Below, one piece after another: positions 5,840 to 43,338 of a stretch of DNA of 64,000 bases. The notes beneath the pieces are model-generated. The model made no database searches, was not told the DNA's origin, and was given only the letters and a program-made list of their open reading frames with translations. How positions within the stretch are numbered: the first letter of the stretch is position 1; every line of letters begins with the position of its first letter. Position numbers and translations under genes: made by a program. This DNA is from Metaclostridioides mangenotii (GTDB lineage Bacteria; Bacillota; Clostridia; Peptostreptococcales; Peptostreptococcaceae): assembly GCF_018917235.1 (NCBI RefSeq), contig NZ_JAHLOF010000004.1, forward strand, positions 186,001-250,000, in the 5' to 3' direction.

Positions 5840-5868
5840 ATGCAATTGTACTTTGCATCTTATATAAT
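5840..5868 (+). promoter_or_regulatory. Putative promoter and operator of the sao operon
   Basis: TATAAT at 5863-5868 is preceded by an inverted repeat ATGCAA-N7-TTGCAT (5840-5858) placed where a repressor would block polymerase. A second TATAAT lies at 5871-5876. No -35 box is convincing, so activation or a weak promoter is also possible. Confidence 0.4.
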
Positions 5869-5924
5869 TGTATAATTATGTAAGAAAAGAATATCAAAAA
5901 ATGTATAATTTTGGGGGTATTAAA

Positions 5925-6257
5925 GTGAAGGTTGCTTATATTTTTAGTAGTACAAACGCACATAAAATATTGGACAAGATGATAATTCCTCAACTTGAAC
6001 AAGGAAATCATGGTGCAGAGGTTCTAGGAATGTTTTTCTTTATGGATAATACGTTATTTCTAACTAAAGGTAATCCGGTAGGTGAAAGACTTAGTAAGCT
6101 ACATGATAAATCTGGAATGATTATTATGGGTTGTGATCAATGTACAATTGAAAGAGGAATTGATAACAATTTAGTAGATGGGGCTACTATTGGTTGTTTT
6201 CCAAATCTATATACGTGCTTAGGTAATGCTGGTATAGATCAAGTAATTACATTATAA
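5925..6257 (+). CDS. saoD: DsrE-related protein, first gene of the SAO operon
   Basis: 110-residue soluble protein of the DsrE/DsrF sulfur-carrier fold type: an N-terminal beta strand (VKVAYIFSS) and then Cys-containing loops GCDQCT (CxxC) and IGCFPNLYTCLG. An upstream in-frame ATG at 5868 exists, but the GGGGGT site with proper spacing supports GTG 5925. DsrE-like proteins relay sulfur, or other thiol-bound groups, between partners. Here it heads a gene set with four selenoproteins, so a thiol/metal relay is a reasonable inference. The name saoD is from memory of the SAO system and is moderately certain. Confidence 0.75.
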   Translation: MKVAYIFSSTNAHKILDKMIIPQLEQGNHGAEVLGMFFFMDNTLFLTKGNPVGERLSKLHDKSGMIIMGCDQCTIERGIDNNLVDGATIGCFPNLYTCLGNAGIDQVITL

Positions 6258-6283
6258 AGTATATTTTTATAAAGTAGATTATA

Positions 6284-6317
6284 AATCACCCATAGAGAGC
6301 GATATCTGTGGGTGATT
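6284..6317 (+). other. Intercistronic hairpin between saoD and saoT
   Basis: Nine-bp stem AATCACCCA / TGGGTGATT with a 16-base loop and no T tail, followed by a small ACGT-flanked A-run. More likely a processing or stability element than a terminator. Confidence 0.45.
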
Positions 6318-6404
6318 GTTACGTAAAAAAACGTTATATATTTATAAAATTTAAAATTTATTTTGTGGGATAGAGATTTTTATTTTTTAATTGGAGTGTG
6401 AATT

Positions 6405-6656
6405 ATGTCAAAAGTTTTAGTTGAGTTTATAAGCACTTGACCATCTTGTGATGAGCATGGAGGGCTTATTAAAGAGCTTGGCGATAAATACAGCGATAAA
6501 TTAGAAGTAAAGCTGTATACTGCCGGAAAGGATTTTTCGTATGTAAAAAAATACGGGCTTATAACAAAAGGGACGATGATTATAGGTCAAAAGAAAAAAT
6601 ACGACAGATTAAATAGAAAAAGTATTGAAAAAGCAATATTAGAAGCGATTAAATAG
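6405..6656 (+). CDS. saoT: Thioredoxin-like selenoprotein with UxxC motif
   Basis: Ordinary gene calling misses this gene because codon 12 is TGA (6438-6440). Read as selenocysteine it gives an 83-residue thioredoxin-like protein: strand KVLVEFIST, then U12-P-S-C15, a helix, and a C-terminal region with KKYGLITKGTMIIGQKK. UxxC replaces the CxxC redox pair of glutaredoxin/thioredoxin-like small proteins. The frame is open with normal codon use on both sides of the TGA up to TAG 6654-6656, and a GGAG site precedes the ATG. It probably reduces or transfers a group between partners in the operon. Name saoT from memory of the SAO system. Confidence 0.85.
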
Positions 6657-6754
6657 AATTTATTTTTATGATATTGAGTTTTCAGTTAAAATTTTCGCTA
6701 TTAAAATCTATTAATTTTTATATTTAATCAAAAATTTATATTTTTAGGAGATTA

Positions 6755-7843
6755 ATGAATATGTTAGAGACGATCTTTACTGCTGTAAAAGATACTATTA
6801 TTACAGCATTTATTATGTTAAATGGATCATCTGGTTGGCTAATGATAAGTTTTGTATTAGCTGGTGTTCTTCATAATGTCGTTACTCCAGAGAGATTTCA
6901 AGAACATCTGGGTAATAAAAAAGTATCATCTTTATTAAAGAGCACTATATCAGGAATGTTTTTACCAATTTGCAGTTGTGGAGTTATTCCTATAGGAATA
7001 AGTATGTATTATTCTGGAGCATATTTAGGACCAATGTTGGCATTTATGACATCAACACCTATTATAAACCCGATAGCTGTAATACTTTGTTTTGGCCTAT
7101 TAGGTCCTCAGATAACTATAATATACATTATTGCAGGGTTTACGCTGCCGATGTTAGTTGGTTTTTTAGGGAATACATTCGCTAAAGACGAACTTTATGT
7201 TGTTAGTAGTGGTGATGATTCTGAAAAAATAGATTTAGAAGAAGAAAGAAAAGGTTTTTTTGAAAATTTAATAGACGGAATGAAATGGTCATTTAGTGAA
7301 CTTGCCCTTACTATAAGTAAATATGTAGTAGTAGGGATGATCATGGCAGGGTTTATTACTACAATTCTTCCAAGCTCGATCATACAGAAGTATTTAGGGA
7401 ATCCAGGTATGATATCAATGGCAAGTATAACCATTTTGGCATGTATCATGTATGTCTGTGCAGTTGGCCACATACCATTTATTGCTGCACTAGTAGCAAG
7501 TGGAGCGTCTCCTGGAGTAGCGATAACATTCTTAATTGCTGGAGCAGCTACTAATTTACCCGAGCTTATTAGTATGTATAATGTTATTGGAAAAAGATGT
7601 GTAATTATATACACAGCAACTCTTACTATAGGATCCATAATTATAGGTTATATAACCAATCTACTTTTAAGTGGCAATTCAAATATTGTAAATAGTCAAG
7701 CCGATGGACCATCGGTACAACTTGCAAATAGTTTATTCTTAAATATCCCAGAATCTATCACATATATATGTTCAATAGCAATAATAATTTTCTGTATAAT
7801 TGCAATCTTTCCTAAAATGAAAGAGTCAATTAATAATGCGTAA
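6755..7843 (+). CDS. saoE: ArsP-like (DUF318) permease, probable organometal efflux
   Basis: 362-residue membrane protein (356 if ATG 6761 is used, which has better spacing from AGGAG). It has about eight to ten spans. The hallmark is LPICSCGVIPIG with a CxC pair at about residues 73 and 75, shared with the ArsP/DUF318 permease family, whose characterised members expel trivalent organoarsenicals. A second conserved half-motif, VGHIPFIAALVASG, and AGAATNLPEL near residues 230-275 support the family. Within this operon it is best read as the export arm for a soft-metal or metalloid product. Its stop overlaps the next gene by 8 bases. Confidence 0.85.
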   Translation: MNMLETIFTAVKDTIITAFIMLNGSSGWLMISFVLAGVLHNVVTPERFQEHLGNKKVSSLLKSTISGMFLPICSCGVIPIGISMYYSGAYLGPMLAFMTSTPIINPIAVILCFGLLGPQITIIYIIAGFTLPMLVGFLGNTFAKDELYVVSSGDDSEKIDLEEERKGFFENLIDGMKWSFSELALTISKYVVVGMIMAGFITTILPSSIIQKYLGNPGMISMASITILACIMYVCAVGHIPFIAALVASGASPGVAITFLIAGAATNLPELISMYNVIGKRCVIIYTATLTIGSIIIGYITNLLLSGNSNIVNSQADGPSVQLANSLFLNIPESITYICSIAIIIFCIIAIFPKMKESINNA

Positions 7844-8297
7844 AAAAATAATTGTAGCTGGCATTGTGATAGTATGCTTGATATTGGGTTCAAAAATATT
7901 GGAAGAAAACTTAAAAGAAGATGATGGATTACCAAATGTAAATAAACAAACACTTAAATACTTTAAATCAAATTGCGAATACAAAGATATCATAACTTAT
8001 GCTGAAGAAGATGTTAATGGTGATAATAAAAAGGACCTTGTAGTTATTTATAAAAATATAGAAGGTCATAATAGATTAATTGTCGTTGCAAGCAAAGGTG
8101 ATGATTATTACATGACAGATCCAATAACAGCACCAGTAGAAGATCAAGCTATAACATTTAAAGATATTGATTCAAAAGGTGTTATGGAGATTATGATTTC
8201 TGGTTCTAAAAATAAAAAGTTTGGTTACGCAATTTACAGATTGGAAGGCAATAAGCTAGAAGATTTATTTGGTGAAAATATGGAGAGTTGTTGTTAA
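7836..8297 (+). CDS. saoC: Exported protein ending in Cys-Cys-COOH
   Basis: 153-residue protein with an N-terminal signal anchor (IIVAGIVIVCLILG) and a small extracytoplasmic domain. That domain holds an EF-hand/FG-GAP-like loop, DVNGDNKKDL, near residues 60-70. The last residues are MESCC, so two cysteines form the very C-terminus. This is the signature of the 'Cys-Cys-COOH (seleno)protein SaoC' family as I recall it; some relatives carry Sec there. Here both codons are TGT (Cys). It is translationally coupled to saoE by overlap. A terminal CC could bind a soft metal outside the membrane and hand it to the ABC importer (inference). Confidence 0.8.
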   Translation: MRKKIIVAGIVIVCLILGSKILEENLKEDDGLPNVNKQTLKYFKSNCEYKDIITYAEEDVNGDNKKDLVVIYKNIEGHNRLIVVASKGDDYYMTDPITAPVEDQAITFKDIDSKGVMEIMISGSKNKKFGYAIYRLEGNKLEDLFGENMESCC

Positions 8298-8322
8298 TTT
8301 AATTTAATTTGGAGGGAAAAAA

Positions 8323-9420
8323 ATGAGTAAATCAAAAAAGGTTAAGGCATTATTGTTAGTTACTGTACTTGGGACTTCGGTACTGACAGGATGTAGCTCT
8401 AAAAAAGAAGCAGCTAAAAATGATGATGATTACGCAATAACAGTTGGATATTATAATTGTGATCACATGACTGCTGCACCAGTTGGAGTTAAAGCTGGAA
8501 TTTATGAAGATTTGGGTTTGAAAGTTAAAACTTTAGGAAATGGAAAAGTTCCTGAAGCAATGGCTGCTGGGCAGATGGATGCTGGATATATAGGTACTGG
8601 AGGTTTAGCTGGAGCAATTCCAAAGGGATCACCAATAGTGGTTGCGGCAAATAATCATAGTGGAGGTTCTGAGTATTTGATTGTCTCAAATGATATAAAA
8701 GACCCTAAAGATTTAATCGGGCAAAAGATTGCTGGGGATCCTGATAATGATACTTTGTGGCAAACTGACTATGGGCCTGAAGCAGGGATACCTGCAAAAT
8801 CAAGTGAGTACGATTGTGTAGATATGGAGTCAGACAAAGATGCGTATTTAGCATTTAAAACTGGTAAAATTAAAGCTTTTACATCTTGTGATCCATGGGG
8901 ATCAGTAGCAGAATTTGAAGGTACAGGTAAAATAATTGCTTCTACACAGTATAAAGAAGAATCAACAGGGAAGCAGTATAATTGTTGTTCGTTTTCACTA
9001 AATAAAAACTTTATTAAAGAGCATCCAGAACTAGCTAAAAAATTAGTTTTAGCTCATACAAAATCAATTGAATACATATACACTAACCCGGTTAAAGCAG
9101 CAAAAATATTTGCTGAAGACTATAATGTAGAAGAAGAAGTAGCACTTATGACGATTTATAAGAAAACAGTTGGGGAAGGTAGAACTTTAACTTGGAAAAT
9201 TACTGGTGATGAGTATAAAAACAATTTAGAGATGTATAAAGAGTACAAAAAAATGGATAAAGTTCCTAATTATGACGAAGTAGTAGATAAAAGTTTATTA
9301 GATTCATGTGGAGCTGATGATTTCGATACATTTATTAAAGAAAAAGTAGATCCAGTATTTCCTAAAGGCATGAGCTATGAAGAATGGAAAGCTAAAGCTA
9401 TGGAAATGGATGAAAAATAG
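8323..9420 (+). CDS. ABC substrate-binding lipoprotein (NMT1/SsuA-like) of the SAO operon
   Basis: 365-residue lipoprotein with lipobox LTGC (Cys24) and a type-2 periplasmic-binding fold like the taurine/alkanesulfonate/nitrate binders. Cysteines unusual for the family lie at likely ligand-contact positions: YYNCDHMTAAP at the first strand, EYDCVD, TSCDPWGS in the hinge, and NCCSF. These could hold a soft metal. It has a GGAGGG site at good distance. The next gene encodes a second, smaller substrate-binding-like protein carrying Sec, so the importer may use two binding proteins. Which of the two carries the name saoB is not certain to me. Confidence 0.85.
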   Translation: MSKSKKVKALLLVTVLGTSVLTGCSSKKEAAKNDDDYAITVGYYNCDHMTAAPVGVKAGIYEDLGLKVKTLGNGKVPEAMAAGQMDAGYIGTGGLAGAIPKGSPIVVAANNHSGGSEYLIVSNDIKDPKDLIGQKIAGDPDNDTLWQTDYGPEAGIPAKSSEYDCVDMESDKDAYLAFKTGKIKAFTSCDPWGSVAEFEGTGKIIASTQYKEESTGKQYNCCSFSLNKNFIKEHPELAKKLVLAHTKSIEYIYTNPVKAAKIFAEDYNVEEEVALMTIYKKTVGEGRTLTWKITGDEYKNNLEMYKEYKKMDKVPNYDEVVDKSLLDSCGADDFDTFIKEKVDPVFPKGMSYEEWKAKAMEMDEK

Positions 9421-9427
9421 ATAGGCT

Positions 9428-10234
9428 ATGAAGTTAATGAGTAGATTAAGAAATATTGTAATTTCGGTAACAATAATTTTAATATGTTTGGTTTTGTTAT
9501 TTTTAAATTTTAATACGAAAGATCATATAAAAGGCAAAATGAAAATAGGGGTATCTGATGATACCTCTGGTTTCGTAATAAACTACATGACAGAAAAAAA
9601 TATATTTGAAGGATTAGAAATCAATGATGTTTTAGATATGTATTCTGTATCTGACTGCTGATCAAGTACTACACAGTGGGCTCTGAGTTCAGAGGAAATG
9701 GATATGGCAATAATCTGCAAAGATGCAGCTAAAGAATATGTAAAAAATGATGCAAACTTTGAGATAGTTGGACCTCTAATTAAAAATTCGGATATATTTT
9801 TGTTAGGGCCTAAAATACCAAAATCTATTGGAGTAACTCAAAAAAGAGATTACCAATACGATTTGGTTAAAAAGTATTATAAAGATGCAGAGATAGTTCC
9901 ACTTATAGGAACAGCTTTGGGCTATGGACTTGAAAGCAATTTAGTCGATGCAATAGTTATTGATGCTATTAAATCTCTTACTATAAAAGGTGATAAAAGG
10001 TCAACTGCAACAGAAGGTGAGTACGAAAGCTATGTACTAGTTGTAAATAAAGATTTCAAAGATACAGATTCATACGCAAAATTTATAAGGTTTTACAATG
10101 AAGCTGTTAAAGATCTAGAGAATGGGAAAGTCTTTAAAAAAGCTATCGAAAATTATAAGGGAATTGATATTTCAAATAAAGAGATGGAGGAAATAATAAA
10201 TTGGAAAGTAAAATTTCTACAGATAGAAGAATAG
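9428..10234 (+). CDS. saoB: ABC transporter substrate-binding selenoprotein (Cys-Sec motif)
   Basis: Codon 78 is TGA (9659-9661), directly after a Cys codon. Read through, it gives 268 residues with the motif SDCUSSTTQW. The part after the TGA continues as a normal binding-protein domain (GVTQKRDYQYDLVKKYY, ALGYGLESNLVDAIVID). An N-terminal membrane anchor (VISVTIILICLVLLF) replaces a lipobox. A small hairpin CTCTG-AGTT-CAGAG at 9681-9694 could be the bacterial SECIS. The protein is shorter than typical SsuA-like proteins. The adjacent Cys-Sec pair is a plausible soft-metal clamp on the outside of the membrane. The name is from memory; the Sec call is from the sequence. It overlaps the permease gene by 34 bases. 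Confidence 0.82.
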
Positions 10235-11010
10235 CTATTAGAAAAAAGAAAAATACAATAAGTTTTTTAGAAACACTATATAGAGTTTTACTTGTGTTGA
10301 CTATAGTAACAGTATGGCATTTTGCTGCGATTGAGATAGGAAGCTCATTACTACTTCCTATGCCATTAGATGTTTTTAAAGGATTTATAACATGTATTAC
10401 TGATCCTGAAATAGTAAAAAATCTAATGATAACTCTTCAAAGAGTATTAAAAGGTTTTTTATGTGCACTTGGGATAGGTCTTCCAATAGGGTTAATTATG
10501 GGATTTTCAATAACTAGCGAAAAAGTATTATCACCTATGATTGACTCGGTGAGACAAGTACCAATAATGGCATGGGTCCCACTTACAATAGTTTGGTTTG
10601 GTATAGGCGATGGGCCTACAATATTTTTAATAGCATTTGCAGGTGTATTTCCTATTATCCTAAATACTATACAAGGGGTTAGAGCAATATCAAAAGATTA
10701 CTACAATGCTGCAAGAAGTATGGGTGCATCTCCGATATCGATTTTCTTTAATGTTATTATTCCAGCTGCTCTACCGGATATACTCACAGGTTCAAGGCTT
10801 GCAATAAGTACTGGTTGGATGTCTGTAATCTGAGCAGAGTTTATAGCTACGAGTGCCGGTCTTGGTTACTCTATGGTACAAGCTCAGACAATGATGAGAA
10901 CTGAGCTATTGGTTGCCCTTATGTGTATGGCAGCTATTATAGGATTTTTAATAGATTTAATATTAAAATTTGTAAACAAAACTCTTTGTAAATGGAGGTT
11001 TGCAAGCTAA
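10201..11010 (+). CDS. saoP: ABC transporter permease selenoprotein
   Basis: 269-residue BPD-type permease (SsuC/TauC-like) read through TGA at 10831-10833 (codon 211). Before it stands the EAA-type loop NAARSMGASPISIFFNVIIP. The Sec lies in GWMSVI-U-AEFIATSAGLGY, immediately before the conserved AE that follows the last loop and where other permeases have Val or Ala. Without readthrough the protein would lose its last 58 residues including the final membrane span. The TTG start overlaps the end of the upstream gene. A Sec inside the translocation path of an ABC importer is striking and suggests direct selenolate contact with a soft-metal substrate (inference). Confidence 0.87.
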
Positions 11011-11762
11011 TGAAGTTGGACGTAAAAAATATAAGCAAATCGTTTATAAACAATAAAAAACATGTAGAAGTACTCAAAAATATTAATTTAGAAGTAGATC
11101 AGGGCGAGTTTATATGCCTACTTGGTCCTTCTGGATGTGGTAAGACTACTTTGCTTACTATAATAGGTGGATTTCAAAAACCTGATAGTGGAGAAATTTG
11201 GGTAAATGAAAACAAAGTTACTAAACCTGGAATTGATAGAGCATTTATATTTCAAAATTATGCTTTATTTCCTTGGAAGAGCGTAAGAGACAATGTACTA
11301 TACCCTATGAAACAGCAAAAGATATCAAGAGAAGAACGTGAAAAAAAGTTAGCAGAACTTATAGAAATGGCTGATTTAAAAGGAAAAGAGAGTATGTATC
11401 CGCACCAGCTTTCTGGAGGGATGAAACAGAGAGTTGCAGTAATAAGAGCTTTAGCATGCAATCCAGAAGTACTCCTTATGGACGAACCTTTGGGAGCTGT
11501 CGATCTTAAGATGAGACAAAATCTACAAGAAGAGTTAGAAAAAATATGGTCATCTAATAAAATTACTGCTGTTATGGTAACTCATGATGTGGATGAAGCA
11601 GTATATATGAGTGATAGAGTAATAATTATGTCACGTAACAAAGGTGAGATTATAGGAAATATAAAGGTTGAAATTCCTAGACCTCGAAATAGAGAATGCA
11701 AGGAATATGAAGAATACAAATCTCATGTATCTGAAATACTATCAACTTGTTATGATGCTTAG
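11010..11762 (+). CDS. saoA: ABC transporter ATP-binding protein
   Basis: 250-residue ATPase of the nitrate/taurine/sulfonate type. Walker A GPSGCGKTT (about residues 37-45), Q-loop FQNYALFPW, signature LSGGMKQR, Walker B VLLMDEP and switch His in VTHD are all intact. ATG 11010 overlaps the saoP stop (TAATG), with GGAGG at ideal spacing. An in-frame ATG at 10992 lies before that site and is rejected. It energises the import of the compound bound by the two upstream binding proteins. Confidence 0.92.
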   Translation: MKLDVKNISKSFINNKKHVEVLKNINLEVDQGEFICLLGPSGCGKTTLLTIIGGFQKPDSGEIWVNENKVTKPGIDRAFIFQNYALFPWKSVRDNVLYPMKQQKISREEREKKLAELIEMADLKGKESMYPHQLSGGMKQRVAVIRALACNPEVLLMDEPLGAVDLKMRQNLQEELEKIWSSNKITAVMVTHDVDEAVYMSDRVIIMSRNKGEIIGNIKVEIPRPRNRECKEYEEYKSHVSEILSTCYDA

Positions 11763-11770
11763 GGGGAAAT

Positions 11771-12394
11771 ATGAGCGAAGTAGAAAAGTATAAAAATTTA
11801 GATGAAACTGAAAGACATATAAGACTATCAATAATGAATATGATAATTGATGAAAAACGTAGTGTTTCAGTTGATGAAGTTGTAGAAAAACTAAGTGCAG
11901 AATTAAATTTGGATGAATATCGTTTAGTAAAGACGTTAGAGCATTTTAAAAATGAAAATGTACTTGTAACCGATGAAGAAAATATTAATTTTATATATCC
12001 AGTGTCTGCATTAGCAACAAATCACAATGTTACTCTTGATGATGGTAGAAGTTTTTATGCAATGTGTGCAATTGATGCAATTGGAACATCATGTACTTTT
12101 CATCAAAATGTAACAATTAATTCGATGTGTTGTGTAAGAGGTACAGAGATTAATATTAGAGTTAAGGATGAGCAGATTGAGTATGTAAACAATCAAGACC
12201 TTAGAGTTCTACATGTTAATTTAGACAAGCACTCAGAATGGGCGGCAAGTTGTTGAAACATTATGAATTTCTTCTGGACGAAGGATGAATATTCAAACTG
12301 GGTGAAACTAAATGAAATGGAAAATAATGAAGATATATATTGCTTGGATATTCAAGAAGCATTAGATGTAGCATATAAAATATTTAAACTATAA
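11771..12394 (+). CDS. saoL: MerB-like organometal lyase selenoprotein
   Basis: 207 residues when TGA at 12254-12256 (codon 162) is read as Sec. It resembles organomercurial lyase MerB: a winged-helix-like N-terminus, FYAMCAID (C99, D102), C120 in NSMCC, and SCU162N followed by FFWTKDEYSNW, matching the F-F-A-S...W stretch of MerB. The known MerB residues Cys96, Asp99, Cys117 and Cys159 correspond here to C99, D102, C120 and U162, all with the same offset of 3, so the Sec falls on catalytic Cys159. A CTTC-TGGAC-GAAG hairpin at 12271-12283 fits a bacterial SECIS. It likely cleaves a carbon-metal or carbon-metalloid bond in the cytoplasm. It is last in the operon, before a terminator. Name saoL from memory. 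Confidence 0.87.
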
Positions 12395-12538: not shown

Positions 12539-14233
12539 GTGAAATTTTCAGAATTTAAATATATAAGACCGGATTATTTGTATCTAAAATCTAATTTTAT
12601 AGATATTGTGAGTAAAATTGAGAAAGCAAAATCTTATAATGATCAAAAGTCACATATCGAAGAGATAAACAAACTTAGAAATGACATAGAATCTATGAAG
12701 ACTATAGTTTCTATAAGATACGGATTAAACACGAAAGATAAATTTTATTTAGATGAAAAGCAGTATTGGGATGACTACGGTCCAATATACGATGAATTAA
12801 ATTCTATGTTTTATAAAAGTATAGTGAACTCTAAATATAAAGATGAGATTGAAAAAGATTTTGGAAGGCAATTTTTAAAAATATGCGAGTATTCTATTAA
12901 AGCTTTTTCATCTGATATAATATCTGAACTACAGGAAGAGAATAGACTATGTTCAAAATATACAAAGCTATTAGCATCAGCGGAGATAGAGTATGATGGA
13001 AAATTGAATAATTTATCAGGTGTAAATGCTTATTTGTACAAACAAGATAGAAAAAGTAGAGAGGAAGCTTCCAAAAAATATTATCAATACTTTGAAGAAC
13101 ATCAATTTGAATTCGACAATTTATTTGATGAGCTTGTAAAGATAAGGGATTGTATGTCTAAAAAACTTGGTTTTGAAGATTTTGTAGAATTAGGTTACTT
13201 AAGAATGATGAGGACAGACTACAATGAAGAGATGGTAAAAATCTTTAGAAATCAAATTTTAAGTGATATAGTTCCTTTAGCAAACGATCTATACGACATG
13301 CAAGCTAGACGTTTAAATTTAAAAAGCTTAGATTACATAGATGAGAACATAGAGTTTTCAAATGGAAATGCAAGTCCAAAGGGTGATTCTGAATTTATTT
13401 TTAATTGTGCAAAGAAAATGTATTCAGAACTTTCTAATGAAACGAAAGAATTTTTTAAATACATAATGGATAACGAACTTATAGATTATGAAAATAGATC
13501 GAACAAAGGTGCTGGTGGATACTGCACGTATATACCAAATCAAAAAGCACCTTTTATATTTGCCAATTTCAATTCAACGCTTGATGATATTGATGTACTT
13601 ACTCACGAAGCTGGTCATGCTTTTCAACTTTATATGTCTAGATGGATAGATTGCCCAGATATAAATTTTCCAACTTTAGATAGTTGTGAGATACATTCAA
13701 TGAGTATGGAATTTATAACGTGGCCTTGGATGTATTTATTTTTTAAAGAAGACACTGAAAAGTATAAGTTTTCACACCTATCTACAGCTATTAAATTTAT
13801 CCCGTATGGTGCTTTAGTTGATGAATTTCAACACGAAATATATAGGAATCCAAATATAACAAATACTGAAAGAAAAAATATTTGGAGAAATTTAGAAAGA
13901 AAATATCTCCCTCATAGAAACTACATTGGATGTGATTTTTTAGAAAATGGTGGTTGGTGGTATAAACAAGGACACATATTTAAAAACCCATTTTATTATT
14001 TAGACTACGCACTGGCACAAGTATGCGCTTTGGAAATATGGAAAAAAAGTAGAAATAAAAAAACAAATTATTTTGAAGATTATAAAAATATGTGTAAAGC
14101 AGGAGGTAGTAAGTCTTTTGTAGAAATGATAGAAATAGGAAATTTAAATTCTCCTTTTGAAAAAAATACAATAAGAGAAGTCATAGATGCTGTAGAATTA
14201 TATATTGAAAATATCAATGAGGATATATTTTAA
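12539..14233 (+). CDS. M3-family oligoendopeptidase (PepF-like)
   Basis: 564-residue zinc metallopeptidase with the active-site motif LTHEAGHAF (HExxH) around residue 355, and DSCEIHSMSMEF supplying the third ligand. The length is usual for the M3 oligoendopeptidase F group, which degrades short peptides in the cytoplasm. GTG start 8 bases after AAGGAG. It stands alone between the sao terminator and the glycine riboswitch. Peptide breakdown feeds the Stickland amino acid pathways encoded nearby. Confidence 0.9.
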   Translation: MKFSEFKYIRPDYLYLKSNFIDIVSKIEKAKSYNDQKSHIEEINKLRNDIESMKTIVSIRYGLNTKDKFYLDEKQYWDDYGPIYDELNSMFYKSIVNSKYKDEIEKDFGRQFLKICEYSIKAFSSDIISELQEENRLCSKYTKLLASAEIEYDGKLNNLSGVNAYLYKQDRKSREEASKKYYQYFEEHQFEFDNLFDELVKIRDCMSKKLGFEDFVELGYLRMMRTDYNEEMVKIFRNQILSDIVPLANDLYDMQARRLNLKSLDYIDENIEFSNGNASPKGDSEFIFNCAKKMYSELSNETKEFFKYIMDNELIDYENRSNKGAGGYCTYIPNQKAPFIFANFNSTLDDIDVLTHEAGHAFQLYMSRWIDCPDINFPTLDSCEIHSMSMEFITWPWMYLFFKEDTEKYKFSHLSTAIKFIPYGALVDEFQHEIYRNPNITNTERKNIWRNLERKYLPHRNYIGCDFLENGGWWYKQGHIFKNPFYYLDYALAQVCALEIWKKSRNKKTNYFEDYKNMCKAGGSKSFVEMIEIGNLNSPFEKNTIREVIDAVELYIENINEDIF

Positions 14234-14514
14234 AATAATGGGCACTAATTAAAAATTTTATAAAAAATTCATTATATTTAATCATTTTTTTGAAGTATAT
14301 TTCATATAACATAGTAAGAAAAGTTTGTGATTTCAGTGAATTTTCGGTATAAAATGAAAAAACTTACTTTTTTTGTAAAAAATATGTTGCAATTTGGATT
14401 GAATATTTATATACTATTAATTAAAGAGATAGTAAAAAACTATTAGACAAAATAGTTAAAAACTTATCCAAATGTATTTTTGCATATTTATATACTAAAA
14501 CTAAACATACGGTT

Positions 14515-14645
14515 GAAGCGTATAGGAGACGGCCACATACTATGATGGCGACCGAAGGGACAAATCTAATCTTAGAATCCAAAAGGTTTAGATGAAATTC
14601 TCAGGTAACAGAAGACTATACGTGGACGTGGCTCTGAAGAATATT
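14515..14645 (+). promoter_or_regulatory. Glycine riboswitch aptamer
   Basis: The 495-base gap before grdX holds a glycine-aptamer core: GACCGAAGGGACAAA at 14549-14563, CTCAGGTAACAGAAGAC at about 14600 and CTCTGAAG near 14632. Outer pairings are GCGTATAG (14518-) with CTATACG (about 14617-) and GGCCAC with GTGGC. Only one complete aptamer is evident. It precedes an intrinsic terminator and then grdX, so glycine should switch on the reductase operon. The stretch 14234-14510 holds nothing else I can support. Confidence 0.82.
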
Positions 14646-14648
14646 TTA

Positions 14649-14693
14649 ACAGGGAATGCAAATTGGATATTTGTATTTTCTGTTTTTTATTTT
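14649..14693 (+). terminator. Riboswitch expression-platform terminator
   Basis: A 15-bp stem with G-U pairs (14649-14663 with 14669-14683) followed by a T run, directly after the glycine aptamer and before grdX. Confidence 0.75.
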
Positions 14694-14728
14694 AAGTAAA
14701 TTACAAATTCGAAAGAGAGAGTGTATAA

Positions 14729-15103
14729 ATGATCATTATAACAAACAACTCAAAAGTAAAAGAAGAAACAAATGATGATTTAAATGTTCTATATAAAGAA
14801 GTTGGTTATATAGATATACTGAAAATTTGTAGAGATTTAATTCATGAGGGTTTTAAACTTCTTTCACATCCACTATATGGAAGTGTGAAGCCAAATGAAA
14901 CACCATATAGAACCATAATTTTGAAAAAAGGCAGCGAACTTGATGTACAATCGTTAAGTTTAATCGAAGATTCAATAATTACCGCGACAAAATTCCAAAA
15001 TGACAAAAAAACTCCAAATTGGACTGAATCAGTAAAAGATGATTTTAGAGTAATTGATTTTGATATATTTTACAACACAGTTCAAAGGATACATTATGTA
15101 TAG
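14729..15103 (+). CDS. grdX: GrdX family protein
   Basis: 124-residue small protein beginning MIIITNNSKVKEE, the typical GrdX N-terminus, which precedes trxB in glycine reductase operons of several clostridia. It is soluble, without obvious catalytic residues; its role is unknown. A GAAAGAGAG site precedes the ATG. It is the first gene behind the glycine riboswitch. The gap to trxB is about 260 bases and very AT-rich, so trxB may also have its own promoter. Confidence 0.87.
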   Translation: MIIITNNSKVKEETNDDLNVLYKEVGYIDILKICRDLIHEGFKLLSHPLYGSVKPNETPYRTIILKKGSELDVQSLSLIEDSIITATKFQNDKKTPNWTESVKDDFRVIDFDIFYNTVQRIHYV

Positions 15104-15365
15104 ACAATAGAGGGGAATAAAATAATTCTTTTAATAAACAAGTAATATGAAATAAAACCTTGACAAAGTGGAATTTTCTGAAAAAAGGGAATTTTTAAAA
15201 AAGTAACTGAGGTTTATTTGTTATACCTAAAAACGTTAAAAATCAAATAAATGTGTTTAGTTTAAGTAGATTGTTAAAAAATAGGCGAAAATGTTAAAAA
15301 ATAATCATGATTTTAATTAGTTAATTATTACCAATTATTATAAAACAAAACAGGAGGAATATAAA

Positions 15366-16313
15366 ATGGAAAACGTTTATGACTTAGTAATAATAGGCGC
15401 TGGTCCGGCAGGTTTGTCAGCTGGTTTATATGGATCTAGAGCAAAACTTAATACTTTGATCATCGAAAAAGACAAAACTGGTGGGCAAATAGTTATTACT
15501 CACGAGGTTGCAAACTATCCTGGATCTGTTAGAGAAGCTACTGGACCATCATTAGTTGCAAGAATGGTTGAACAGTGTGAAGAATTTGGAGCAAAAAGAG
15601 TAAAAGATACAATAGAATCAGTAGAGCTAGATGGTGATATAAAAGTTTTAAAAGGTCAAAAAGACGAGTACAGAGCTAAGGCTGTAATTATTGCAACTGG
15701 AGCATCTCCAAGAAAAATAGGCTGCCCAGGAGAGAAAGAACTTACAGGAAAAGGAGTTTCTTACTGTGCAACATGTGATGCAGATTTCTTTGAAGATTTC
15801 GAAGTATTTGTTGTTGGTGGTGGAGATAGTGCACTAGAAGAGGCTATGTATCTAACAAAATTTGCTAGAAAAGTAACTGTCGTACACAGAAGACAAGGAT
15901 TTAGATGTGCTAAGAGTGTGTTAGAAAAATCTCAGGCAAATCCAAAAATAGAGTTTTTACTAGATACAGTAGTTGAAGAAATAAAAGGTGATGGTTTACT
16001 AGAGTCAATAGTTTTCAAAAACAAAGTAACTGGTGAGACTCATGAGTACTTTGCTGATGAAGAAGATGGAACAATGGGATTATTCGTTTTCGTTGGTTTA
16101 GTTTCTCAAACAGAGCTATTTAAAGACAAAGTAGATATGAATGAACAAGGTTATATTATTACAGACCAAGATATGAAAACCAACATACCAGGGGTATTTG
16201 CAGCGGGAGATGTCAGAGAAAAATCATTAAGACAAGTTGTTACAGCATCTGGAGATGGTGCAATAGCTGCAGTAATTGCAGAAAAATACATTGATGAAAA
16301 ATTCCCAGAATAG
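15366..16313 (+). CDS. trxB: Thioredoxin reductase (NADPH-type flavoprotein)
   Basis: 315 residues: FAD-binding GAGPAGLSAGLY at the N-terminus, redox pair CATC (YCATCDADFF) near residue 135, the second dinucleotide site VVGGGDSALEEA, and C-terminal GVFAAGDVREK. It passes electrons to the TrxA next door, which reduces glycine reductase component A in the Stickland pathway. GGAGG site before the ATG. It is the first of the trxB-trxA-grdEABCD series. Confidence 0.95.
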   Translation: MENVYDLVIIGAGPAGLSAGLYGSRAKLNTLIIEKDKTGGQIVITHEVANYPGSVREATGPSLVARMVEQCEEFGAKRVKDTIESVELDGDIKVLKGQKDEYRAKAVIIATGASPRKIGCPGEKELTGKGVSYCATCDADFFEDFEVFVVGGGDSALEEAMYLTKFARKVTVVHRRQGFRCAKSVLEKSQANPKIEFLLDTVVEEIKGDGLLESIVFKNKVTGETHEYFADEEDGTMGLFVFVGLVSQTELFKDKVDMNEQGYIITDQDMKTNIPGVFAAGDVREKSLRQVVTASGDGAIAAVIAEKYIDEKFPE

Positions 16314-16385
16314 TATCCGATTGAATATTATTTAAGGGAGTTTAAATAATAAAATAAAAAATAATTAATATAAGGGGGAAACAAT

Positions 16386-16703
16386 ATGTTATCACTAGAT
16401 AAAGAAACATTTGAAGCTGAAGTATTAAATTCTGATGAGGTAGTATTTGTTGATTTTTGGAGTGAAGGTTGTGAGCCTTGCAAAGCTTTACTACCAGACA
16501 TTGAAAAGTTATCTGAAACATATGGAGATAAAATAAAATTCTGTAAGATGGACACTACAAAAGCAAGAAGATTAGCTATAAAACAAAAAGTATTAGGACT
16601 TCCAACTCTAGCAATATACAAAAATGGTGAAAAAATAGACGAGGTTACTAAAGATGATGCAACAGTACCTAATATAGAAGAAATGATCAAAAAACACTTA
16701 TAA
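16386..16703 (+). CDS. trxA: Thioredoxin of the glycine reductase operon
   Basis: 105-residue thioredoxin with active site GCEPCK (residues about 30-35) instead of the general WCGPC. The GCxPC form is typical of thioredoxins encoded in clostridial and eubacterial grd operons. The cis-proline region GLPTLAIYKNGE is present. Electron carrier between TrxB and GrdA. GGGGGA site before the ATG. Confidence 0.95.
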   Translation: MLSLDKETFEAEVLNSDEVVFVDFWSEGCEPCKALLPDIEKLSETYGDKIKFCKMDTTKARRLAIKQKVLGLPTLAIYKNGEKIDEVTKDDATVPNIEEMIKKHL

Positions 16704-16810
16704 AATACGTTGAAAACATTCGCAATCAATAGAAAAAAGAAGTAGACTAACAAAGGTATAAATTTGACACTGGTCAGATATATATAAATCTAAATATTAG
16801 GAGGTGCAGT

Positions 16811-18097
16811 ATGCGTCTTGAATTAGGTAAGATCAATATTAAAGATGTTCAATTTGGTGATGAGACAAAAGTAGTAGATGGTATTTTATTCATTAACAAA
16901 GATGAGATGCTACAAGAAATTGGTGGGGATGAGCACATTAAATCAATTGATATAGACATAGCTCGTCCAGGTGAAAGTGTTAGAATTACGCCAGTAAAAG
17001 ATGTAATTGAGCCTAGAGTAAAGGTTGAAGGAAATGGTGGAATATTCCCAGGAATTATATCAAAGGTTGACACTGTTGGAGAAGGTAGAACTCATGCACT
17101 TAAAGGTGTTGCAGTTGTTACTACTGGTAAAATAGTTGGTTTCCAAGAAGGTATAATAGACATGACTGGGGAAGGTGCAAAATACACTCCATTCTCTAAA
17201 TTAAACAACGTTGTTGTAATAGCTGAGCCAGTTGATGGATTAAAACAACATAATCATGAGTACGCAGTTAGAATGATAGGATTTAAAGCTGCAACATATT
17301 TAGGAAAAGTTGCTAAGGAACTTACTCCTGACGAAGTGTCAACTTATGAGACTAAGCCACTACTTGAGCAAATAAATGAATATCCTGAACTACCAAAAGT
17401 GGGGTATGTTTATATGCTTCAAACTCAAGGACTACTTCATGATACTTATGTATACGGAGTTGATGCAAAACAAATAGTTCCAACTTTATTATATCCAACT
17501 GAAATAATGGACGGTGCTGTTGTAAGTGGTAACTGTGTTTCTGCTTGTGATAAAAACCCAAGCTATGTTCACATAAACAATGGAGTTATAGAAGAACTTT
17601 ATGCTCAACATGGTAAAGAAATAAACTTCGTTGGTGTAATAATTACCAATGAAAACGTATACCTAGCTGACAAAGAAAGATCTTCAAACTGGACTTCTAA
17701 GTTGTGTAAATACCTAGGTTTAGATGCGGCTATAGTATCACAAGAAGGTTTTGGAAACCCTGATACTGACCTTATAATGAACTGCAAGAAGATAGAGAAC
17801 CAAGGAGTTAAAACAGTAATAGTTACTGACGAGTACGCTGGTAGAGATGGTGCATCCCAGTCATTAGCAGATGCTGATCCAAAAGCAGACGCTGTTGTAA
17901 CTGGAGGAAATGCTAATCAAGTAGTAGTATTACCAAAGCTTGATAAAATTATAGGCCATTTAGATGTAGTTGAAGTAATAGCAGGAGGGGCTGACGGTAG
18001 TTTGAAAGAAGATGGAACTATCGAGGTTGAGATACAAGCTATAACTGGTGCTACGAATGAAACAGGATTTGGTCATTTAACATCAAAAGGATTTTAA
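16811..18097 (+). CDS. grdE: Glycine reductase component B, alpha/beta proprotein
   Basis: 428-residue proprotein that is cut into two subunits. The processing site is SGNC-VSAC, with Cys242 becoming the pyruvoyl group that forms a Schiff base with glycine; the residue number equals that known from other GrdE proteins. Component B binds glycine and hands the carboxymethyl group to the selenocysteine of GrdA. AGGAGG site and ATG start. It is followed directly by grdA and grdB. Confidence 0.95.
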   Translation: MRLELGKINIKDVQFGDETKVVDGILFINKDEMLQEIGGDEHIKSIDIDIARPGESVRITPVKDVIEPRVKVEGNGGIFPGIISKVDTVGEGRTHALKGVAVVTTGKIVGFQEGIIDMTGEGAKYTPFSKLNNVVVIAEPVDGLKQHNHEYAVRMIGFKAATYLGKVAKELTPDEVSTYETKPLLEQINEYPELPKVGYVYMLQTQGLLHDTYVYGVDAKQIVPTLLYPTEIMDGAVVSGNCVSACDKNPSYVHINNGVIEELYAQHGKEINFVGVIITNENVYLADKERSSNWTSKLCKYLGLDAAIVSQEGFGNPDTDLIMNCKKIENQGVKTVIVTDEYAGRDGASQSLADADPKADAVVTGGNANQVVVLPKLDKIIGHLDVVEVIAGGADGSLKEDGTIEVEIQAITGATNETGFGHLTSKGF

Positions 18098-18171
18098 TTA
18101 AATTTAAATTGTAATTGATATTTAAGAATAAATATATAAATTAGATTTTAAAATAAACGAGGAGGAATATT

Positions 18172-18651
18172 ATGAGCTTATTGACTAATAAGAAGGTCCT
18201 TATAATAGGTGACCGTGACGGAATACCTGGACCTGCGATAGATGAGTGTGTAAAAACTGTAGAAGGGGCAGAGATAATATTTTCATCAACTGAATGTTTT
18301 GTCTGAACGGCTGCCGGGGCTATGGACTTAGAAAACCAAAAAAGAGTTAAAGATGCTTCTGATAAATACGGAGCTGAGAACTTAGTGGTTTTACTAGGTG
18401 CTGCTGAAGCCGAAGCTGCAGGTCTTGCAGCTGAGACAGTTACTGCCGGAGATCCAACATTCGCTGGACCGCTTGCTGGAGTTGATTTAGGATTAAGCGT
18501 TTACCATGTTGTTGAATCAGAGATGAAAGAGTTATTTGATGATGAAGTTTACGAAGATCAAGTAGGAATGATGGAGATGGTTTTAGAGGTTGACGAGATA
18601 GCAGATGAAATGAAAGAAATAAGAGATGAATTCTGCAAGTTCAATAACTAA
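18172..18651 (+). CDS. grdA: Glycine reductase component A selenoprotein
   Basis: 159 residues when TGA at 18304-18306 (codon 45) is read as Sec. The motif CFVU (Cys42-x-x-Sec45) is the classic GrdA redox site, which carries the Se-carboxymethyl intermediate shared by the glycine, sarcosine and betaine reductases. ATG with GGAGG upstream. The frame continues through [16 protein letters not shown], typical of GrdA. Only one grdA is present in the window, so both component B modules presumably use it. Confidence 0.97.
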
Positions 18652-18677
18652 AATAAAATCTAAAGGGGTGAAATCGT

Positions 18678-19988
18678 ATGGAAAAGCTTAGAGTAGTTCA
18701 TTATGTAAATCAGTTCTTCGCTGGTATTGGTGGAGAAGAAAAGGCTGATACAAAGCCTCACGTAGCTGAGACTTTGCCACCAATAAGTGTACAACTTAAT
18801 AAAAATTTGGGCGATGAATTAGAAATAGTTGGAACGGTTGTTTGCGGAGATAGCTATTTCAACGAAAACATTGACGACGCTAGTGAAGAAGTTCTAGGTA
18901 TGATAAAAGAATTCAAACCTGATCTTTTTATAGCAGGTCCTGCATTTAACGCTGGTAGATACGGGGTTGCTGCTGGAACAATAACAAAAGTTGTTCAAGA
19001 AGCATTAAATATACCATGTGTTACAGGAATGTATATAGAAAATCCAGGTGCAGATATGTTCAAGAAGGATGTTTACGTTATAGAAACTTCTGACTCTGCA
19101 GCGGGAATGAGGAAAGCGCTTCCTAAGTTAGCTAAATTTGCAATTAAACTTACTAAAGGAGAAGAAATCGGAGCTCCTAAAGAAGAAGGATATATGCCAA
19201 GAGGAATAAGAGTTAACTACTTCCACGAAGATAGAGGATCTAAGAGAGCAGTAGATATGCTTATCAAAAAGATCAAAGGAGACCCATTTGAGACTGAATA
19301 CCCAATGCCTGATTTCGACAGAGTTGATCCAAATCCAGCAGTAAAAGATATTACAAAAGCTACAGTAGCTCTAGTAACATCTGGTGGTATTGTTCCAAAA
19401 GGAAACCCGGATAGAATAGAGTCTTCGTCAGCTTCTAAGTACGGTTCTTACTCAATAGCTGGAGTAGAAAACCTTACTGAAGAAACTTATGAAACAGCAC
19501 ATGGTGGTTTCGACCCTGTTTACTGTAATATAGATTCAGATAGAGTTCTACCTGTTGACGTTCTAAGAGACTTAGAAAAAGAAGGAGCTATAGGTAAACT
19601 ATATGAGACTTTCTTCTCAACAGTTGGTAACGGTACTGCCGTTGCAAGTGCTAAGAAATATGCATCTGAAATAGGTGCTAAATTAAAGGCTGACGGCGTA
19701 GATGCAGTAATCTTAACTTCTACGTGAGGCACTTGTACTCGTTGCGGTGCAACGATGGTAAAAGAAATTGAAAGAGCAGGAATACCTGTTGTACACATGT
19801 GTACAGTTGTTCCAATCTCACTTACAGTAGGAGCAAACAGAATAATTCCAACTATTGCAATACCTCATCCACTTGGAAATCCAGCTCTAGAGCCGGAAGA
19901 AGAAAAGGCTTTAAGAAGAGGATTAGTGGAAAAAGCACTAAAAGCATTAACAACAGAAGTTGATGGTCAAACAGTGTTTGAAGACTAG
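18678..19988 (+). CDS. grdB: Glycine reductase component B gamma selenoprotein
   Basis: 436 residues with TGA at 19725-19727 (codon 350) read as Sec in the motif STUGTCTRCG. A perfect CGTTGC-GGT-GCAACG hairpin at 19740-19754 fits the bacterial SECIS. GrdB holds the Sec that helps split the substrate C-N bond with the GrdE pyruvoyl group. The start has AAGGGGTG upstream. A GC-rich hairpin follows the gene before grdC. Confidence 0.97.
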
Positions 19989-24318: not shown

Positions 24319-25644
24319 ATGAAATTAGAAATTGGACAATTTTATGTTAAAAAAATCACTTTTGGCAAGAAAACGTTTTTTCAAAATGGTGTTTTAACGC
24401 TTAATAAAAAAGAACTTCTAGATTTTGTAAAGATGGATAAGAGGATAACTGAAGCCGATATACACATAGTAAAACCGGGAGATATGGTTAGAATTTGTCC
24501 TGTAAAGGAAGCAATTGAACCGAGGGTAAAATTAGATGGTTCGCCTCTGTTTCCAGGATACACTGGAGATGTAGTTCCTTGTGGAGACTCGAAGACACAT
24601 GCGATGAAAGATTGCAGTGTATTAGTTGTAGGTAAACATTGGGGTGGTTTCCAAGATGGTTTAATTGATATGGGTGGAGAAGGTGCTAAATATACTTATT
24701 TTTCAAAGCTGAATAATATTGTATTGGTAGCAGATACAGATGAGGATTTTGAAAAACGTGAACAACAGAAAAAAAACGATGCACTTAGAAAGGCTGGACA
24801 TAAATTAGCTGAGTATATAGCAAATTGTGTAAAGGATCTAACTCCAGATGAAACTGAAGTTTATGAATTACCATCAGTTACAAAGAGAGATAGAGATGTG
24901 AGTAAACTACCTAGTGTTGTATTAGTTATGCAAGGTCAATCTCAAATGGAAGAATCCGGTTACAACGATTTAGTTTATGGATGGGATATGAACCACTTTG
25001 TACCTACATTTATGCATCCAAATGAGATCTTAGATGGTGCTCTTATTTCTGGAAGTTTTATGCCTTGTTCTTCTAAATGGTCTACTTATGATATACAAAA
25101 TACACCAGTATTAAAAAGTTTATATAAGGAACACGGAAAAACTATAAATTTTTTAGGCGTTATTTTATCAAACCTGAATGTGTCACTTGAGCAGAAAGAA
25201 AGATCAGCAATATTTGTAGCACAGATTGCGAAATCATTAGGCGCAGATGGTGCTATTGTTACTGAAGAAGGATATGGAAATCCTGATGCTGACTTTGTTG
25301 GTTGTATTGTAGCACTTGAAGATGCAGGGGTAAAAGTAGTAGGACTTTCTAATGAATGTACGGGTAGAGATGGGAATTCACAACCATTTGTTACGTTAGA
25401 TAAAAAACTTGATGCAATAGTATCTTGTGGTAATGTTTCAGAAATTATAGAACTTCCAGCAATGGAAATTGTACTTGGAGAGCTAGAGTCTCTAGGGAGA
25501 GATGGATTAGCAGGTGGATGGGCTAATGATGAAGTACTAGGGCCTTCAGTTAGAGAAGATGGATCAATAATAATGGAAAATAACTCAATGTTCTGTGGTG
25601 ACCAAGTTTTAGGTTGGTCTACTAAGACAATGAAAGAATTCTAG
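24319..25644 (+). CDS. Betaine/sarcosine reductase component B proprotein (GrdG/GrdI-like)
   Basis: 441-residue paralogue of GrdE with the same layout (IEPRVK, GEGAKYT, DGALISGS, GYGNPDADFVG). The substrate is probably betaine because a BCCT carrier is two genes downstream; sarcosine is the alternative. The expected autoprocessing Cys is missing: where GrdE has GNC242 this protein has G-S-F247, and the nearest Cys is Cys250 in MPCSSK. Either cleavage uses Cys250 or the protein matures differently. AGGAGG site before the ATG. Confidence 0.88.
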   Translation: MKLEIGQFYVKKITFGKKTFFQNGVLTLNKKELLDFVKMDKRITEADIHIVKPGDMVRICPVKEAIEPRVKLDGSPLFPGYTGDVVPCGDSKTHAMKDCSVLVVGKHWGGFQDGLIDMGGEGAKYTYFSKLNNIVLVADTDEDFEKREQQKKNDALRKAGHKLAEYIANCVKDLTPDETEVYELPSVTKRDRDVSKLPSVVLVMQGQSQMEESGYNDLVYGWDMNHFVPTFMHPNEILDGALISGSFMPCSSKWSTYDIQNTPVLKSLYKEHGKTINFLGVILSNLNVSLEQKERSAIFVAQIAKSLGADGAIVTEEGYGNPDADFVGCIVALEDAGVKVVGLSNECTGRDGNSQPFVTLDKKLDAIVSCGNVSEIIELPAMEIVLGELESLGRDGLAGGWANDEVLGPSVREDGSIIMENNSMFCGDQVLGWSTKTMKEF

Positions 25645-25665
25645 TAGAATAGGGGGGGGAAATTT

Positions 25666-26976
25666 ATGAAAAAAGCAATTTTGTATTTAAATCAGTTTTT
25701 CGGTCAAATCGGTGGTGAAGATAAGGCTGACTATGAACCAGAAATTAGAGACGGTTTAGTAGGTCCAGCTTTACAATTAGATAAATTGTTAGAAAATACT
25801 CAGATTACACATACAGTTATTTGTGGAGATAATTTTATAGGATCAAACACTGAAGAAGCCATTAATAAAATACTTGGTTTTTTAGAAGATAAGGAGTTTG
25901 ATATATTCTTTGCAGGCCCAGCCTTCCAAGCAGGAAGATATGGAGTTGCATGTGGACATATATGTAAAGCAGTAAAAAATAAATTTGGTGTAGAAGTAGT
26001 CACATCGATGCATGAAGAAAATCCTGGTGTAGATATGTTTAAAAAAGATATGTATATTCTTAAAGGCGGAAATAGTGCAGGAAAAATGAGAAAAGATTTA
26101 TCTAGTTTAGCTAAACTGGGAAATAAAATACTAAATAATCAAAGAGTTTTAGACGCAGAAACAGAGGGAATTTTTGAAAGAGGAAAGAGACATCAAGTTT
26201 GGAGAGACGATAATGTAATGGCAGCAGATAGAGCAGTAGATATGATTATTAAAAAACTTACTGGACAAGATTTTATATCTGAGTTAGAGATACCTTTAAT
26301 TGAGAAAGTCCCAATAGCTCCTGCTGTAAAAAATATTAAAAATGCAAACGTTGCACTTGTTACAACTGGTGGAATAGTTCCTGTCAATAATCCTGATAGA
26401 ATTCAATCTGCATCAGCTACTAGATGGGGAAGATACGATATATCTAATATGGGGGATTTAAAAGCTGGTGAATTTAAAACTATACATGCCGGATTTGATC
26501 CTGCTGTGGCAAACGGAGATCCTGATGTAATAACGCCTATAGATGCTCTTAAAGAACATGAGAAAAAAGGGAATATTGGAAAACTTCACGAATACTTTTA
26601 TTCTACCGTAGGAACTGGCACAACACAAGGTGAAGCTATAAAGATGGCAAATGAAATGATTCCTTATCTTAAGGATGCAAACGTTGACGCTATTATTTTA
26701 GTTTCCACATGAGGTACTTGTACTCGTTGCGGTGCAACGATGGTAAGAGAGTTTGAAAAGGCTGGATATCCTATAGTACAAATGTGCAACCTAGTTCCAG
26801 TTGCTAAAACTGTTGGAGCAAATAGAATAGTAACTACGGTATCAATACCGTATCCGATGGGTGATCCAAAGATATCTAAAGAAGAACAGTATAAACTTAG
26901 ATTCGATATGGTTAAAACAGCTTTAGATGCACTTACAACTGAAATTGATGAGCAAACTGTATTTAAATACAATTAG
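25666..26976 (+). CDS. Betaine/sarcosine reductase component B gamma selenoprotein (GrdF/GrdH-like)
   Basis: 436 residues with TGA at 26710-26712 (codon 349) read as Sec in STUGTCTRCG, identical to the GrdB active site. The CGTTGC-GGT-GCAACG SECIS hairpin is conserved base for base with grdB although the rest of the genes has diverged. It works with the preceding proprotein to bind and cleave a methylated glycine derivative. There is no second grdA, grdC or grdD nearby, so those components are shared with glycine reductase. GGGGGGG site before the ATG. Confidence 0.92.
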
Positions 26977-27108
26977 TTATAAATAATTAACACCGGTTTT
27001 ACAAATATGGACTATAACTTATATAGAAAGACATATTTAATAAATACGATATAAGAACCAATGAACTTACTATATAAAGTATAGTCCTTAAAGTAGGAGG
27101 AGTTAAGT

Positions 27109-43008: not shown

Positions 43009-43338
43009 ATGTTAAAATAAATAACTAGTAATTTGGATTATAAAAAACAATTCAGATAATTCTTTATATAGAAAGGTGATATGCTTTACTAACATATTAT
43101 TTTTAACAGAAAAAAGAATGTAAAAAAAAGTAATAAATTGTTGAGTAATAAATAAATTGATGATATCATTTACTTAAGAGATTATATTGTAAACGATTTC
43201 ATTTGGTAAAAATAGACAAATAAAATCTAAATAGTACATAAATATTCGAAGTAAGAAGGTATAATTACCTACTTGTTGAATATATAATTTCAAATATATT
43301 TATATTTGGTCAGAAATATTTTGAGGAGGTTTTTTATA
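43009..43338. other. AT-rich intergenic region before the first aminopeptidase
   Basis: About 330 bases without a gene I can support. The end holds AGGAGG for the aminopeptidase. I see no riboswitch core. Confidence 0.5.

Follow-up and report, generated by a model that had tools for sequence, protein, structure and literature searches.

What would an anaerobe do with an operon in which four of nine genes carry an in-frame UGA codon, and in which a MerB-like lyase accompanies an importer and an exporter? This question is raised by a stretch of 64,000 nucleotides from Metaclostridioides mangenotii, referred to throughout as the window, which holds such an operon on the + strand at 5925-12394. 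The initial annotation of this DNA had named it as a selenocysteine (Sec)-assisted organometallic (SAO) system with a logic of import, cleavage and export. By curated models the operon is assigned to the SAO system, and each of its four UGA codons is predicted to specify Sec rather than to be a random stop. On balance, the encoded proteins would import an organometal(loid), break its carbon-metal bond at a MerB-like Cys99-Asp102-Sec162 site and expel the freed ion.

Nine Sao families and four UGA codons predicted to encode selenocysteine

The nine genes are co-directional and clustered, as first described, and comparison with hidden Markov models of the Sao families, the check that the initial annotation had proposed, placed every product above the curated cut-off of its own NCBIfam equivalog, which bears out the identification as SAO. 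The first gene, saoD (5925-6257), encodes a DsrE-related protein (NF040732, 188 bits, cut-off 169) that falls marginally below the Pfam DsrE cut-off (21.7 vs 22.7) and whose Cys70, Cys73 and Cys91 are kept in 15 of 15 sequences. It is followed by saoT (6405-6656), for a thioredoxin-like predicted selenoprotein whose U12-P-S-C15 motif was placed by site alignment (NF040730, 123 bits, cut-off 65), and by saoE (6755-7843), for an ArsP_1-type efflux permease (NF040736, 543 bits, cut-off 325; PF03773, 175 bits) with conserved Cys73, Cys75, Cys235 and Cys339. The product of saoC (7836-8297) has an N-terminal hydrophobic segment and a Cys-Cys-COOH end (NF040734, 172 bits, cut-off 80), and that of saoX (8323-9420) is an SsuA/NMT1-type substrate-binding protein (NF040735, 524 bits, cut-off 300) with Cys46, Cys189, Cys221 and Cys222 and an N-terminus that looks lipobox-like by eye. 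A membrane-anchored substrate-binding protein, a predicted selenoprotein with a C77-U78 motif, is assigned to saoB (9428-10234) by its model (NF040727, 270 bits, cut-off 140) and by fold match. The ATP-binding cassette (ABC) permease gene saoP (10201-11010; NF040733, 415 bits, cut-off 295) has its predicted Sec in the context GWMSVI-U-AEFIATSAGLGY, the ABC ATPase gene saoA (10992-11762; NF040729, 435 bits, cut-off 360) has a second ATG at 11010, and the MerB-like lyase gene saoL closes the series (11771-12394; NF040728, 205 bits, cut-off 140; PF03243, 95 bits, cut-off 27). Pfam classes agree for SaoE (ArsP_1), SaoX (NMT1), SaoP (BPD_transp_1), SaoA (ABC_tran) and SaoL (MerB), and no Pfam match was found for SaoT, SaoC or SaoB. 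The initial annotation also credited most of the remaining proteins with reactive cysteine pairs; conserved cysteines are indeed present, and their reactivity is putative. Scans for promoters and terminators gave counts close to those of shuffled sequence (40 vs 41.9 and 2 vs 1.5).

The saoT, saoB, saoP and saoL genes have one in-frame UGA each, exactly where they were first reported: 6438-6440 (predicted Sec12 of SaoT), 9659-9661 (Sec78 of SaoB), 10831-10833 (Sec211 of SaoP) and 12254-12256 (Sec162 of SaoL). Their fate was followed in 37 SAO genomes, comprising the window's and those of loci L031-L055, L063-L065 and L087-L094. These come from a SaoL search of the window's family, in which 24 of 71 genomes had a match (that of the window among them), from SaoL searches of even samples of the class (4 of 391 positive, two of them new) and the order (30 matches in 393, 28 above the cut-off and three of those new), and from a SaoP search of an evenly drawn phylum sample, in which 9 of 398 genomes passed the cut-off, eight of them new; L002 and L003 are excluded from the counts, and sub-cut-off SaoL matches in G547 and G512 likewise lie outside the set. 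The SaoL site is Sec in 30 genomes and Cys in two, the gene being absent from five; the SaoP site is Sec in 31, Cys in five and absent in one; the SaoB site is Sec in 25, Cys in eight and absent in four; and the SaoT site is Sec in 26 (21 UxxC, 5 CxUC), Cys in six and absent or off the contig in five. In the SaoT of L031, L032, L035, L040 and L094, C-A-U-C replaces U-P-x-C, shifting Sec two residues on. No residue other than Sec or Cys occurs at any of the four sites across the 37 genomes, which disposes of the random stops in relatives that the initial annotation had named as its refutation.

Database relatives point the same way. Among 120 SaoL relatives listed of 147 matches, 103 stop at the Cys that precedes the site and two stop there otherwise; the remaining 15 extend past it, each with Cys at the site. 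For SaoP, 120 of 1009 matches at E 1e-20 were listed; 81 of these relatives stop at the site, and the 39 that run through it have Cys in 34 cases and Trp in five, the latter presumably UGA translated with another code. Fifteen of 18 SaoB matches start after the site, and the three that span it all have Cys. SelB exceeds its cut-off in all 37 SAO genomes (24 in the family and 13 others), with the selB of the window's genome at G000:C4:114095-115954 (376 bits), and this genome has a tRNA-Sec candidate of 66.3 bits (gathering 47) by a model that likewise passes its threshold in 5 of 14 controls.

At the RNA level, which was examined in the window and L031-L055, a hairpin is predicted downstream of each UGA: a stem within 6449-6471 for saoT, and hairpins at 9681-9694 for saoB (AGUU loop), 10851-10871 for saoP (GUCU loop) and 12269-12285 for saoL. 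The distance from UGA to hairpin is typical of bacterial selenocysteine insertion sequence (SECIS) elements, and in 21 of 25 rows a GGUCU motif could be read by eye in the SaoP hairpin. Relative to synonymous-codon shuffles the hairpins are more stable, with mean z per genus of -1.46 for SaoT (8 genera), -1.85 for SaoB (8), -3.25 for SaoP (10) and -2.18 for SaoL (11), although significance is not reached in every single genome and, for SaoP, L055 runs the other way. A codon-column shuffle, run without the four CxUC SaoT rows and the short L053 SaoL row, is clear for SaoP (5/200) and SaoL (1/200), and same-codon conservation after the UGA ranks high for both (window ranks 24/262 and 9/205). Several results weigh against reading the UGA codons as Sec: the codon-column shuffle is not clear for SaoT (35/200) or SaoB (33/200), same-codon conservation is not raised in either (ranks 40/78 and 100/255), and Rfam finds no SECIS at gathering scores in the operon, its only SECIS_4 matches in the window starting at 19728 and 26713, both in grd clusters downstream. 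Of these, the lack of a SECIS match and the weak shuffle result for SaoT and SaoB could be cited for ordinary stops in truncated or decayed genes. Against them, the sites hold Sec or Cys exclusively while conserved protein sequence continues on both sides, Cys homologues span each site, and SelB and a tRNA-Sec candidate are present; we reject ordinary stops and pseudogenes, to which we assign a vanishingly small chance. At the RNA level, then, two sites are well supported and two modestly, and it is the protein-level evidence that carries all four.

SaoL, the SaoE-SaoC pair and a putative import-cleavage-export route

SaoL belongs to the MerB superfamily by its Pfam match, its predicted MerB fold and its catalytic positions, with Cys99, Asp102, Cys120 and predicted Sec162 aligning with Cys96, Asp99, Cys117 and Cys159 of MerB. 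The alternative placement of Sec at MerB Cys160 was excluded by phmmer alignments that are gap-free from Cys120 to U162 (1s6l, 3f2g, 5c17). SaoL differs from the MerB of mer operons in having Sec in place of Cys159 and Cys161 at the position of Phe158 in 1s6l MerB, and in being partnered by an ABC importer and an ArsP-type exporter. With its 159 positions the NF040728 model matches only up to the residue that precedes Sec162, so the C-terminal MerB part lies outside the SaoL model.

The importer components SaoX, SaoB, SaoP and SaoA are of the same class as those of SsuABC, TauABC and NrtABCD by sequence or fold, but the SAO binding proteins and permease carry Sec and Cys, and there are two binding proteins, one of them membrane-anchored. 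A second SaoX-like binding-protein gene occurs in the operons of L040, L048 and L049, the L040 copy exceeding the SaoX cut-off, and L034 and L038 have X-P-A-D-L alone in the stretches examined.

On the export side, SaoE shares the ArsP_1 family (PF03773) with ArsP-type permeases and is related to the Cu/Zn exporter family. It differs from such permeases in scoring below the SO_0444 Cu/Zn efflux cut-off (NF033936, 194 vs 300 bits) and in its partner: a SaoC match lies directly 3' of the SaoE match in all 32 loci with both (gap -20 to +116 bases), and the two are fused as one protein in L090 and L092, where the fusion still ends in Cys-Cys. The pairing of SaoE with SaoC rests on this gene order and the two fusions. 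SaoC ends in Cys-Cys in 22 of 22 sequences and begins with a hydrophobic anchor or, as judged by eye in L031, L032, L035, L065, L089 and L093, with a lipobox-like N-terminus instead. Its tail would thus face outward and serve the exit step, with SaoC as an extracytoplasmic partner of SaoE; a parallel for such a tail is the C-terminal Cys pair of MerA, mentioned in an excerpt of PMC4525700.

Taken together, these features suggest a route in five steps. Because SaoX and SaoB are of the binding-protein class and have conserved Cys or Sec, they could bind a soft metal outside the cell by thiolate/selenolate exchange, SaoB through Cys77-Sec78. SaoP and SaoA would then carry it inward, with Sec211 of SaoP as a possible extra ligand. 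Inside, SaoL is predicted to act like MerB and protonate the leaving carbon group, Sec162 occupying the Cys159 position, after which SaoT and SaoD might reduce the enzyme or receive the metal. Finally, SaoE would export the ion and the Cys-Cys tail of SaoC may receive it on the outer face. The most likely substrate is an organomercurial, followed by an organoarsenical. The import-cleave-export logic of the initial annotation is therefore retained in part: its components fit, and the logic itself is conjecture, limited by genomes with no MerB-family match and by selenium-linked neighbours.

A number of observations weigh against this route. Importing a poison merely to export it is physiologically odd. 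SaoL scores far below the MerB equivalog cut-offs (NF009710, 56.0 vs 193 bits; NF033555, 53.4 vs 200), and MerB2 has Ser at the Asp99 position (5c17 alignment), so the Asp alone is no proof of activity. Five of the 37 SAO genomes (G924, G790, G838, G956 and G837) have no MerB-family match in the whole assembly; all five are among the 13 outside the family, and their completeness is 94-99, although draft assemblies could conceal such a gene. These five keep SaoX, SaoB, SaoP, SaoA and SaoD, and four of them keep SaoT, SaoE and SaoC, the exception being G838 with a 4.3-kb contig. Cleavage by SaoL is thus not an obligate step of SAO. A regulator argument is thin because one query found an ArsR relative in just 1 of 37 loci, and ArsR regulation was dropped as a general clue; that single case, in L065 (7300-7776), is an ArsR-family regulator whose C-terminus is rich in Cys and whose gene lies upstream of an SAO operon with both Sec and Cys forms. 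Lastly, the organometal model leaves unexplained a recurrent neighbour of the operon, described below.

Selenium-linked neighbours and rival explanations

A gene for a double-cubane-cluster anaerobic reductase lies inside SAO or within 2.3 kb of it in 14 of 37 genomes, representing 11 of 22 genera (L031, L032, L034, L035, L038, L054, L055, L063, L065, L087, L089, L090, L093 and L094). Seven of the 14 exceed the NF040772 cut-off (L031, L032, L034, L035, L038, L054 and L055), the L065 copy has Pfam HGD-D, and the remaining six were assigned by similarity. By an informal estimate the spacing is closer than chance expects, since a genome of 1-5 million bases has only a few matches. A tree of the 14 adjacent and 21 other copies excludes a single SAO-specific reductase lineage, as at least seven changes, meaning gains or losses of the neighbourhood, are needed for the 14 copies on well-supported branches; the adjacency label is not clearly clustered on the tree (48 of 500 shuffles as low). 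Nor is the adjacency explained as a by-product of SAO's own demand for Sec, as the reductase also adjoins SAO in L090 and L093, whose four sites are free of Sec. No such reductase was found near SAO in 23 of 37 stretches, of which L053, L091 and L092 had less than 1 kb of flank, and the window's operon has none in the surrounding 21 kb. The window thus differs from the 14 genomes in which a reductase with its activase adjoins SAO; the copy above the cut-off in its genome lies on another contig (L095), next to a gene that looks activase-like by eye.

Other neighbours also have selenium connections. Se_S_carrier genes flank L054 and L055 and, by similarity, L094, and YedE/YedF-like genes, named by eye, lie 3.6-4.6 kb from SAO in L089. 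Excerpts of PMC5322559 connect 2-hydroxyglutaryl-CoA-dehydratase-type and activase genes, YedE, YedF and DUF3343 with the use of selenium, and a figure legend in PMC10418091, on methyl-selenide-type clusters, mentions Sao genes. The NCBIfam reductase model is numbered close to the SAO models, and their author may know of the link.

The reductase recurs beside SAO, the Sec-free L090 and L093 included, and selenium-carrier genes adjoin some loci, so the organometal reading has a competitor in a link to selenium metabolism. SAO could be an arm of that metabolism, in which organoselenium or a selenium-bound metal is processed by SaoL or the reductase while SaoD and Se/S carriers pass selenium on. 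The spread of adjacent copies over the reductase tree, the carrier and YedE/YedF-like genes, and the families and figure legend just cited all speak for it, as do five genomes in which none of the observed SAO sites has Sec (G924, G790, G838, G956 and G941) that all have SelB and in four cases SelD above the cut-off. Yet MerB chemistry requires a metal binding two thiolates, a selenium-acquisition system made of selenoproteins would fail in selenium shortage, and Cys-only SAO in SelB genomes may descend from Sec forms; moreover, the reductase was not found in most of the stretches examined, the window included, and is common anyway, exceeding the cut-off in 59 of 71 genomes of the family and in all 24 with SAO. 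We regard this explanation as unlikely, a little more so than one in which SAO handles and expels soft metals and metalloids in general, as inorganic or small organic ions, with SaoL as an accessory, to which we grant a minor chance. The latter would account for the MerB-less genomes that kept other Sao genes and suits both the kinship of SaoE with ArsP_1 and Cu/Zn exporters and the Cys-Cys-COOH tail of SaoC, but SaoL is retained in 32 of 37 genomes, its catalytic position being Sec or Cys, and in L054 it stands alone, without another Sao gene in the surrounding 18 kb. A composite, in which SAO is no relative of mercury resistance but a metalloid pathway wired into selenium metabolism, the carbon-metal bond is cut by either of two interchangeable enzymes, SaoL or the ATP-driven reductase, and exit proceeds via SaoE-SaoC to the external Cys-Cys tail, strikes us as more doubtful again; here the reductase accompanies a SaoL-less SAO in L090 and L094, and its adjacency to SAO spans several distinct lineages of the enzyme. 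Organometal import, cleavage and export thus remains the account we favor.

Relation to the published system and surroundings in the window

The SAO system was described by Haft and Gwadz (2023, J Bacteriol 205:e00259-22), as cited in PMC13188914 and PMC10418091; the window's operon adds a member with four Sec genes to this already published system. It has all nine families, Sec at SaoT, SaoB, SaoP and SaoL, and an order, D-T-E-C-X-B-P-A-L, equal to that of six g4 loci (L041-L046; g4 being Clostridioides to judge from protein names). According to excerpts of PMC13188914, a 2026 review, SaoL, SaoC, SaoX, SaoB, SaoP and SaoT are selenoprotein families and an operon may have six selenoprotein genes, whereas the window has four, with SaoC and SaoX as Cys forms. 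The same excerpts state that precise SAO roles need further investigation, in agreement with the initial annotation, which knew of no experimental proof of function. In the excerpts consulted, PMC12013277 and PMC11448449 go no further than citing the SAO paper, and "SaoB" in an excerpt of PMC12674515 is an acronym for syntrophic acetate-oxidising bacteria. SaoL-less systems, SaoE-SaoC fusions, the Cys159 position and the reductase neighbour were not found stated in our literature search, whose reach did not include Haft and Gwadz 2023 or Haft and Tolstoy 2025.

Should the favored account be true, an anaerobe would handle a carbon-metal compound with selenolates from start to finish, and SaoL, as a naturally occurring MerB with selenium as third metal ligand, would offer a direct test of selenium's contribution. 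If the selenium-metabolism explanation were true instead, the organometal name would need revision. The dispensability of SaoL, the tie of SaoC to SaoE, the reductase neighbour and SelB in all 37 genomes narrow the purpose of SAO to concrete questions.

Downstream of the operon, an M3-family oligoendopeptidase gene lies at 12539-14233, with a similar gene in 12 of 37 SAO loci, the L037 and L063 matches in this count being partial or weak. Next come a glycine riboswitch (14513-14628) and a grd cluster with thioredoxin and thioredoxin reductase (14513-19988), followed by a second grd-type cluster (24319-27000), the genes of both being named by eye; the Rfam SECIS_4 matches at 19728-19765 and 26713-26750 lie in these clusters. 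As grdB was found in just two of the 37 stretches, the window's and that of L054, we make no general claim on proximity to glycine reductase. Upstream, at 2637-2939 on the - strand, is a gene for a small Cys-rich DUF1540 protein, and DUF1540-like open reading frames were seen by eye near SAO in L033, L036, L037 and L039, which belong to another genus. Farther along the window, 43306-47444 holds two tandem, highly alike aminopeptidase-P-like genes, named by eye.

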